Assembly: GCF_016612535.1 (NCBI RefSeq)
Contig: NZ_JAENXS010000001.1
Location: 1,258,501-1,322,500, forward strand
Source: Bradyrhizobium diazoefficiens
Lineage (GTDB): Bacteria; Pseudomonadota; Alphaproteobacteria; Rhizobiales; Xanthobacteraceae
Direction of reading: 5' to 3'
Length of the DNA: 64,000 bases
Shown: positions 9,551-63,663 of the stretch, piece by piece
How the letters are laid out: every line of letters starts with the position of its first letter
Position numbering within the stretch: position 1 is the stretch's first letter
Made by a program: the position numbers and the translations under genes
Notes under the pieces: generated by a model
The model's input: the letters and a program-made list of their open reading frames with translations, nothing else
Databases searched by the model: none
Told to the model about the DNA's origin: nothing

Positions 9551-9764
9551 TACCGGCAGTCCAACGCCGGCGCGGGCTACTGAAAAGGCTTGTCCTTCAT
9601 TGCCAGGTGTGCGGGCGGGAAATTCCCAACCAATCCACGGCAGCACAGTCTGGTTTGAGTCTCGTGGCTTCGTCGCGCCTCCATCGCGCGATCTGGCCGG
9701 AGTGCTCATATCCGACGCAATTTTTTGAACGGATCCCCGTCGCTGGGCCGTTTGGGAGAGTGCT

Positions 9765-62177: not shown

Positions 62178-62268
62178 GTAGGGTGGGCAAAGCGCAGCGT
62201 GCCCACCATTGTCCATCGCGATCCGCCGAGCGATGGTGGGCACGGCGCGTTGCGCCTTTGCCCACCCT
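62178..62268. repeat. REP/BIME element interrupted by the IS110 insertion
   Basis: GTAGGGTGGGCAAAGCG (62178-62194) starts the left hairpin, and GGTGGGCACGG..CTTTGCCCACCCT (62235-62268) is the inverted right one. The right head should read CTACG but is CTTGT here; ACGGG resumes at 63647 after the IS, so the element is split within its head. Confidence 0.85.
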
Positions 62269-62298
62269 TGTATTGGCGGGCCGGGCTATGATGGGCTG

Positions 62299-62472
62299 GT
62301 TCCGTGAGGAATGGCCCAGCCCGGGTGGCCACCCGGGCTGGGCCGCCGATCGATCGGATCGATGCCCACCGAAGCCCCTGAGAGCTGCGTTTCGTAGCAA
62401 GATCGCGGTCGGCACTTCATCGGGACCCGCATGGTTGAACGAACTTCAGGTTCGCATCACAAGGGAGGGTCG
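62299..62472 (+). ncRNA. Predicted IS110 bridge RNA
   Basis: Starts with a 14-bp hairpin from a perfect 32-bp palindrome (62313-62344). Then, in order: TGCCCACC (62363-62370), identical to the left target next to the core; TTTCGTAG (62390-62397), pairing with CTACGGGA of the right target with two G-U pairs; ATGGTTG (62431-62437), identical to the IS right end (63638-63644) next to the core; ACAAG (62459-62463), pairing with CTTGT at the IS left end. GACCC (62424-62428) and GGGTC (62467-62471) close the donor loop, and CGAAC/GTTCG (62440-62454) form its inner hairpin. A TATGAT -10 lies at 62287-62292. The 5' and 3' ends are estimated. Confidence 0.8.
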
Positions 62473-62478
62473 AGGAAG

Positions 62479-63450
62479 ATGGCCAAACGTAACACGATCT
62501 GTGCCGGAATCGATACTAGCAAAGACAAGCTCGACGTGGCGCTCGATGGCAGTTCGGAGGAGCTGCAGGTCAAGAACACGGCGGAAGGTCACCAGGAGTT
62601 GGTGGAGTGGCTGAAGCGCCACAAGGTCAAGAGGGTTGGGATCGAGGCGAGCGGTGGTTATGAGCAGGCGGCGGTTGCCGAACTGCGACGCAAGCGGTTT
62701 GTCGTCATCGTATTTCAGCCGATCCAGGTCCGTGCCTATGCCACGTTCCATTTGCAACGGGCCAAGAACGACAAGATCGATGCTGCGTTGATTGCGGCCT
62801 GCACCGCCGCGGTCAAGAACATCCATCCCGCTCCAGACCCCCGGCTGCAGCCCTTTGCCGTGCATCTGACGATGATCGACCAGATCAAGGAGGACATCGC
62901 AAAGCTCAAAAATCGGCTGGAGAGCTGCCGTGACGAGCGTATCCAGAAGTTCTGGAAGGAGCAGATTGCTCTGTTGGCCAAGCACAGACGAGCCGAGTTC
63001 AAGGCCTTGGTGGCAGCGATCCGCAAGCATCGCGATCTCGCCGCACGTCTCGATCTGATCTACAGCGTTGGCGGCAGCGGCTTGCCGACCGCGGTTGCCA
63101 TCTTGATCAGGATGCCCGAGATCGGTCGGATCACCCGCGAGCAAGCCGCAGCCCTCACCGGACTTGCGCCTTACGATGACGACAGCGGCAAGCATATCGG
63201 CGCCCGTCGAATTGACGGCGGACGCCAGCGCTTGCGTCAGGCACTCTACACCGCAGCTCTTCCGGCCTCCTTCCGCTGGAACCCGCAGCTCATGGCCCTG
63301 TACAGCCGGCTGATCGCCGCCGGCAAGGGCCACAAGCGCGCGCTCGTCGCCTGTGCCAGAAAGCTGATCGTCATCATCAACGCCGTCGTCGCCCGCGGAA
63401 CACCGTGGGTCGCTGAACCGCCCAAAACCGTGAGTGTGTCCGTCACCTGA
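62479..63450 (+). CDS. IS110-family transposase (DEDD/serine recombinase)
   Basis: 323 residues from ATG at 62479 with GAGG upstream; an ATG at 62431 is part of the predicted donor guide. The RuvC-like DEDD set is D12 (CAGIDTSKDKLDV), E56 (GIEASGGYE), D98 and D101 (KNDKIDAALI). The C-terminal Tnp20 domain has YSVGGSGLPTAVAILIRMPE and DDDSGKHIGARRIDGGRQRL with the probable catalytic Ser S236. The frame is intact, so the element may be active. It would use the bridge RNA encoded just upstream. Confidence 0.94.
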   Translation: MAKRNTICAGIDTSKDKLDVALDGSSEELQVKNTAEGHQELVEWLKRHKVKRVGIEASGGYEQAAVAELRRKRFVVIVFQPIQVRAYATFHLQRAKNDKIDAALIAACTAAVKNIHPAPDPRLQPFAVHLTMIDQIKEDIAKLKNRLESCRDERIQKFWKEQIALLAKHRRAEFKALVAAIRKHRDLAARLDLIYSVGGSGLPTAVAILIRMPEIGRITREQAAALTGLAPYDDDSGKHIGARRIDGGRQRLRQALYTAALPASFRWNPQLMALYSRLIAAGKGHKRALVACARKLIVIINAVVARGTPWVAEPPKTVSVSVT

Positions 63451-63663
63451 TCGCGTTTCTTGGTTCGACCAGGCGACCGTTTCTTCGTCCCGACCTGCCG
63501 TCAAGACGACGCCGCGCACCGCGGCCGTCAAGGATGGCCGTCGCGCGCGTCTCACCTCACATCAACTGCCGCCAGGCCACGCCTTGACGGCCGCGGCGCG
63601 CGGCGTCAGCCTCAAGGCTATCGGGACGCCATACTTAATGGTTGCTACGGGAATCGCGCTCGG

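Follow-up and report, generated by a model that had tools for sequence, protein, structure and literature searches.

A predicted bridge RNA in a REP-inserted IS110-group element of Bradyrhizobium, with guides that change along with their targets

The left end of an IS110-group insertion sequence (IS), found at the end of the window (the whole 64,000-nucleotide stretch of Bradyrhizobium diazoefficiens DNA that was analysed), almost certainly encodes a bridge RNA, the interpretation offered in an earlier note made from the sequence alone. It is supported because the co-change of guides and targets that it predicts is seen; the evidence of sequence further comprises the guides themselves, a choice among site classes, exact empty sites and conserved RNA loops, and we infer transcription, binding and catalysis from the work on IS621. 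That is, the joined ends of the excised circle would create a promoter from which the RNA would be transcribed, its second loop would pair with the joined ends of the element itself, the recombinase, aided by two handshake guides, would exchange strands at the CT common to target and donor, and the element would be inserted with no duplication beyond CT. The element is a new, well-supported case of a mechanism known for the IS110 family; this is the mechanism published for IS621, to which the note had referred for the family.

The element and its guides

The IS is bounded by CT cores at 62267-62268 and 63645-63646, and its ends measure 210 nt (left) and 194 nt (right); a left end of this length carrying the guide RNA is as in the IS110 group, and the right end is not short. 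The recombinase has both domains of the IS110 family, DEDD (RuvC-like; Pfam DEDD_Tnp_IS110) and Transposase_20, with catalytic D, E, D, D and S, and its best solved relative is that of IS621 (PDB 8wt6, E = 1.3e-25). The four acidic residues and the DDSG serine were as in IS621 in all 56 distinct proteins examined, the serine being assigned from the HMMER alignment and the invariant DDSG. A near relative (L009, B. iriomotense) is 85% identical. The genome of the window contains six full copies of the IS, besides two partial ones that lie at contig ends. In each full copy the left junction is TTTGCCCACC-CT and the right junction CT-AC, with outer flanks that vary. The partial copies L007 (right end) and L008 (left end) have left target AAACCCACC and right flank CTGTGG, and if they belong to one copy it would be a seventh insertion, with a site that pairs with the guide partly via G-U. 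The features are as follows, in window coordinates.

62178-62268: target REP dimer (GTAG-tagged palindrome), into whose right arm the IS has inserted at the CT core; the remainder is AC at 63647-63648
62260-62266, + strand: left target GCCCACC (P1-P7), identical in 6/6 full copies of the genome
62267-62268: left CT core, the first two bases of the right donor CTTGTAT (62267-62273)
62287-62292, + strand: -10-like hexamer TATGAT, 17 bp from TTGCTT
62299-62472, + strand: predicted bridge RNA within the limits given in the earlier note, starting 7 nt past the -10; its 3' end may reach the recombinase start
62299-62312 and 62313-62344, + strand: two 5' stem-loops
62345-62413, + strand: target-binding loop, closed by 62345-62352/62406-62413 and 62357-62360/62401-62404 (helices 1 and 2)
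62363-62370, + strand: left target guide (LTG) TGCCCACC, P0-P7
62390-62397, + strand: right target guide (RTG) TTTCGTAG
62398-62399, + strand: handshake guide CA after the RTG, complementary to donor TG left of the core
62423-62471, + strand: donor-binding loop, closed by 62424-62428/62467-62471, with inner hairpin 62441-62444/62450-62453 (helices 4 and 5)
62431-62437, + strand: left donor guide (LDG) ATGGTTG
62456-62463, + strand: right donor guide (RDG) AU-(C)-ACAAG, split
62464-62465, + strand: handshake guide GG after the RDG, complementary to target CC left of the core
62479-63450, + strand: IS110 recombinase, 323 aa, with D12, E56, D98, D101 and S236
63451-63644, + strand: right end, 194 nt, including a conserved hairpin at 63508-63607
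63638-63644, + strand: left donor ATGGTTG
63645-63646: right CT core

Direct reading placed the bridge RNA and all four guides where the earlier note had put them, and confirmed the order 5' stem-loop, LTG, RTG, LDG and RDG, with the guides in two internal loops; covariance models matched there at 62295-62478 and 62343-62478. The guide pairs, proposed to lie 19-21 nt apart, are 19 and 21 nt apart, and the stem said to enclose the donor pair is present. The statement that every guide is exact up to the CT core needs amendment for one of them: the other guides were found as given, but the RTG is exact only over CGTAG, forming against CTACGGGA five exact pairs from the core and then two G-U and one A-U, and over the six full copies of the genome the right target is constant only over CTAC. 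The RDG is present as the ACAAG that was listed, but is longer, with a split extension AU (62456-62457) that can pair with the next two donor bases when one nucleotide is skipped. The bases after the LTG (P8-P9) are GA and those after the LDG are AA; neither left guide reaches into the CT core. To the four guides already recognized we add two handshake guides and a predicted promoter found only in the circle, which had been missed. Chance agreement, which had been judged unlikely, is indeed so by simulation, with TGCCCACC, CGTAG, ATGGTTG and ACAAG occurring in order in 0 of 200,000 mononucleotide shuffles of the left end.

Guides and targets change together

Of the 265 genomes of the genus, 66 (counting that of the window) had recombinase matches at E <= 1e-40; in the order, matches at E <= 1e-50 occurred in seven of 397 genomes, three of these in the genus. 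From the fetched loci 119 distinct copies were built, of which 113 were parsed; the unparsed ones (L017, L018, L019, L032, L164 and L138) stand outside the guide counts, and L056, whose left target is without one base, stands outside the guide-pairing, permutation and asymmetry counts and inside the RTG count. Copies that agree in near flank and left end enter as one, so that five of the genome's six full copies are among the 113. We distinguished by identity clades A (at least 60%, n = 69), B (49-57%, n = 26), C (43-45%, Rhizobium and kin, n = 3) and D (37-40%, n = 15).

Across 112 copies that are related and thus not fully independent, some of whose shared flanks may be duplications, LTG positions P1-P7 paired with the copy's own left target, by Watson-Crick or G-U pairs, at 769 of 784 positions; shifting the guide by 1-3 nt gave 32-55%. 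Counted by copy, 88 were exact, 14 had G-U pairs only, and 10 (L014, L068 and L158 among them) had one or more mismatches. When targets were permuted among the 47 families, whether freely or within clades, none of the 20,000 trials of either kind reached the observed score. On the other side of the core, RTG positions P8-P11 paired in every one of the 102 copies whose right target could be read (100 with Watson-Crick pairs throughout, two with G-U at P10), pairing being loose from P12 on. Pairing is asymmetric at P6, where in clades A and B a guide U stands at T 25 times and at C eight times and a guide C stands at C 60 times and at T once, the asymmetry that would be expected for RNA pairing to the bottom strand.

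On the recombinase tree of clades A-C, P1 changes six times in the guide and six times in the target, and the four independent pairs on supported branches gave on average 3.8 agreeing and 0.0 opposing; P6 changes seven times in the guide and 10 times in the target, with 3.3 of four pairs agreeing and 0.2 opposing. Sign tests on the tree cannot reach 0.05 because only four supported pairs are available. The covariation of target guides with insertion sites that the earlier note had suggested as a check is thus seen repeatedly, and within one genus. The note had also held that copies with different flanks and identical target guides would speak against its reading; the six full copies of this genome are of that kind, but all lie at sites of one sequence, TTTGCCCACC-CT-AC, as the guide demands.

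Of the handshake guides, the one in the target loop was complementary to P7 of the non-cognate DNA in 101 of 101 cases, and the one in the donor loop formed 107 Watson-Crick and five G-U pairs among 112. Donors vary little; co-change on the donor side occurred in G030 (position 13) and in clade C (CTTGG with CCAAG). The G030 case, in L085 and L086, joins left end CTTGTCT to a right donor guide AGACAAG that is contiguous, not split, and is a donor-side compensatory change. In G233, all four copies (L066, L109, L110 and L111) share one mismatch, left donor ATAGTTG with guide ATTGTTG. Guide and target also fit poorly in L158 (G159), with TGCCACCC at TGCCCACC, and in L014, with ACCCACC at ACCCATC; these are perhaps decayed or recently changed guides.

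Choice among REP classes

Bradyrhizobium genomes contain at least three REP classes, reading GCCCACC, ACCCACC or ACCCATC ahead of CTAC. GTAG-tagged REPs (GTAG-3 and GTAG-14) have been reported in Bradyrhizobium (PMC3733652), and the consensus sequences given for Br-REP1 and Br-REP2 (PMC5082802) differ from the target REP here. The CGTAG of the RTG reads CTACG, that is, it holds the complement of the REP's GTAG tag, and since the right guide reads this tag typical of REPs, the IS appears to rely on their most constant part.

We counted free REP sites in 12 genomes, chosen from the 66 with matches mostly by copy number; the classes differed widely in abundance (GCCCACC 10-279, ACCCACC 6-127, ACCCATC 2-50). 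The availability test used fetched copies only, 74 of 75 after L105 (AGCCATC), which fits no class, was set aside. Insertions lay in the exact class of their guide in 67 of the 74 cases, where availability alone predicted 32.4 and the maximum in 20,000 draws was 50; with G-U allowed all 74 were compatible, against 46.6 expected. The genome of the window has 12, 127 and 14 free sites of the three classes in the above order, and its six full copies, with guide GCCCACC, are all in the GCCCACC class; G233 has 218, 6 and 14, and its four copies, with guide ACCCATC, are all in the ACCCATC class. Two IS lineages share genome G088, each in the class of its own guide (4/4 and 1/1).

These counts bear on an alternative in which the recombinase itself recognises REP palindromes and the guide matches only reflect sequence common to the left end and the REP. 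It would suit the facts that nearly all copies of clades A and B are in REP-like sites, that CTAC is present in all 91 of these whose right target is readable, and that IS of five families, some outside IS110, are associated with REPs (PMC1525189). However, recombinases of the same clade are found in REP classes that differ with one or two bases of the guide, the two lineages of G088 and the availability test both follow the guide, and the targets of clades C and D are other sequences, yet mostly match their own guides; we consider this alternative very unlikely.

Guidance by a bridge RNA is further supported by the empty sites. A search with joined flanks found intact orthologous sites, reading CCTTTGCCCACC-CT-ACGG, in G022 and G105; the orthologous site is without one base in G031 and differs by two bases in G176. 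Since these sites are uninterrupted, insertion was exact at CT, with no duplication beyond the core. Two pairs of divergent IS110 elements lie head to head in G241 (C1:7059253-7061626 and 2600518-2602890; L072 and L117), apparently with one element in each arm of a single REP dimer.

Core pairing and the junction promoter

Each of the four pairings of IS621 includes the core (PMC11208160), a trait of that element that we do not take to characterise the family as a whole. Core pairing by LTG or LDG, at P8 or P9, was found in none of 68 clade A copies, and the first core base was paired by both left guides in all 44 copies of clades B, C and D. Mapped on the recombinase tree (A-C), this amounts to one change per left guide, with A parted from the rest, and from the distribution among copies the loss of left-guide core pairing looks lineage-specific. 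The contact of IS621 residue N84 was considered as the cause of the loss and rejected, the residue being Q in clades A, B and C alike.

The joined circle ends form a predicted sigma-70-like promoter, TTGCTT-17 bp-TATGAT, as IS621 reportedly does at its circle junction (PMC11208158). TTGCTT arises only in the circle, when TTG of the right end (63642-63644) meets CTT (62267-62269); at that position, clade A copies that are integrated have ACCCTT or ATCCTT. In circle form it was present for 41 of the 48 distinct left ends, the other seven being without a readable right end. The hexamer 17 bp on matched TATAAT at a mean of 4.65 of six positions in clade A, 4.18 in B, 4.0 in C (not unique) and 3.75 in D. 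Here the core lies within the -35 box; a donor of IS621 that was cut to 22 bp around the core lost its -35 box (PMC11208160, PMC11208158).

Conservation of the RNA loops

Over 35 aligned loop regions of clades A-D, the named loop structure was paired in 91.0% of cells, against 81.4% in shuffled and at most 52.7% in slid controls. In the stem that closes the target loop, five pairs have both sides changed, and an exhaustive scan placed this stem at the top for its number of pair types; the inner hairpin of the target loop pairs in 75.2% of cells. Further pair types in the loop alignment (21) were not above those in shuffles (22.1).

A segment that ends at the likely recombinase ribosome-binding site and folds better than shuffled sequence (z = -3.1) might be no more than a 5' untranslated leader with regulatory hairpins for the recombinase gene, but its loop bases change together with DNA flanking the element and its helices keep pairing through separate changes, so that this explanation is more improbable still than recognition of REPs by the recombinase.

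Covariance model R1 was rejected as a test of distant kinship, antisense hairpins scoring like clade D left ends (23-32 bits); with E up to 1 it gave no match in the IS621 locus (L138). In its place we used R2, a loop model without the 5' hairpins, which recovered held-out left ends, three of them near (94.8-112.2 bits) and four remote (25.9-47.5 bits), the latter being L032 (Thiotrichales), L028 and L037 (Lysobacterales) and L164 (same order); other matches were at or below 12.4 bits. With E up to 10, R2 had no match in the IS621 locus or in the remote loci L038-L040 and L044-L047 (Peptoniphilus among the remote loci). The structural likeness to IS110 bridge RNAs, which the earlier note had made a test of its reading, therefore extends to held-out IS110 left ends, Gammaproteobacteria included, but IS621 itself was missed.

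A second structured part at the right end

Folding of the 194-nt right end, into a hairpin at 63508-63607, is far superior to that of shuffled sequence (z = -7.33). Over 23 right ends of clade A, the hairpin is paired in 98.7% of cells and has six pairs with both sides changed, against 95.4% and 2.3 in shuffled sequence. The right end is short and without the hairpin in L015 (a parsed clade A copy) and in clades B and C, where it measures 6-13 nt (10 nt in C). Clade D right ends look hairpin-like by eye and were not counted, as the hairpin model R3 gives no match there.

R3 matched in 162 of the 265 genomes of the genus and in 13 of the 397 of the order; with the recombinase in 66, at least 96 genomes have the hairpin without a close recombinase relative. 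Among 31 loci with weaker R3 matches, the hairpin lies 3' of a transposase gene in 22, which belong to two other IS110-family lineages (domains were checked in one protein per lineage, and the DEDD domain of the second, L197, was below the cut-off); one has a transposase gene not facing the hairpin, and eight have no such gene in the stretch examined at the locus. Five copies of the G193 element, which is among these, were compared, and to the eye it has subterminal inverted repeats, the mark of the IS1111 group. In the 22 loci the hairpin is oriented opposite to the transposase; in clade A the two run in the same direction. Across lineages (28 sequences), in an alignment that was fitted to the structure, 96.6% of cells pair and 74 cells have both sides changed, against 23.8 when shuffled.

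On these alignments the covarying hairpin looks like a second, lineage-specific feature of the right end, though it also lies beside two other IS110-family lineages. It could be a transcript-end structure, a DNA hairpin or a passenger. We tentatively suggest, at somewhat under even chances, that the clade uses two structured parts: a bridge RNA whose left-guide core pairing was lost on one branch, and an apparently undescribed right-end hairpin, kept by compensatory change 3' of at least three IS110-family lineages (reversed in two), which would serve transposition as RNA or as extruded DNA.

Relation to known systems

Likeness to IS621 of E. coli (PMC11208160, PMC11208158; PDB 8wt6) extends from the layout, a left-end RNA with a 5' stem-loop followed by the target loop and then the donor loop, to the use of strands (the left guides pair with the bottom strand, the right guides with the top), the CT core, the split RDG, the handshake guides (described in PMC11208158), the circle-junction promoter and a REP target read by RTG = GTAG. 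Differences from IS621, besides the placing of the -35 box, are that the recombinase is about 32% identical, the LTG here reads GCCCACC, the LTG and LDG are without core pairing, and the right end has 194 nt with a hairpin of its own.

Natural re-direction by guide change is shared with the seekRNA of IS1111/IS110 elements (PMC11187229), although in the examples given there (ISEc11 and ISXne4, of IS1111 type) a long non-coding region that carries the RNA is downstream of the transposase gene, whereas here the RNA is upstream. ISPpu9, ISPpu10, ISPa11 and ISRm19 (PMC1525189) are likewise IS110-family elements in REPs, but in other hosts and other REPs, and were described before guide RNAs were known.

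The earlier note had thought this guide set undescribed. We found no description of it, or of the right-end hairpin, in open-access full text; the element may already be catalogued in ISfinder or in the supplement of PMC11208160. The mechanism and the covariation, in turn, are already in print: mechanism, covariation, handshake guides and junction promoter have been published for IS621 and thousands of IS110 relatives (PMC11208160, PMC11208158), the covariation being drawn from 2,201 donor and 5,511 target pairs (PMC11208160).

What the present elements offer is a natural guide-swap, in which related elements of one genus, with guide changes of one or two bases, go to different REP classes in the same genomes. 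For a recombinase family in use for genome engineering they suggest rules that may hold in vivo, namely tolerance of G-U at P6 and four constant bases in the right target; the lost core pairing and the right-end hairpin pose direct questions for reconstitution.

The right-end hairpin matched no Rfam family at gathering level. The one Rfam match at that level in the window was a speF leader at 9551-9709 (56 bits), and both non-coding ends had weak matches below it.
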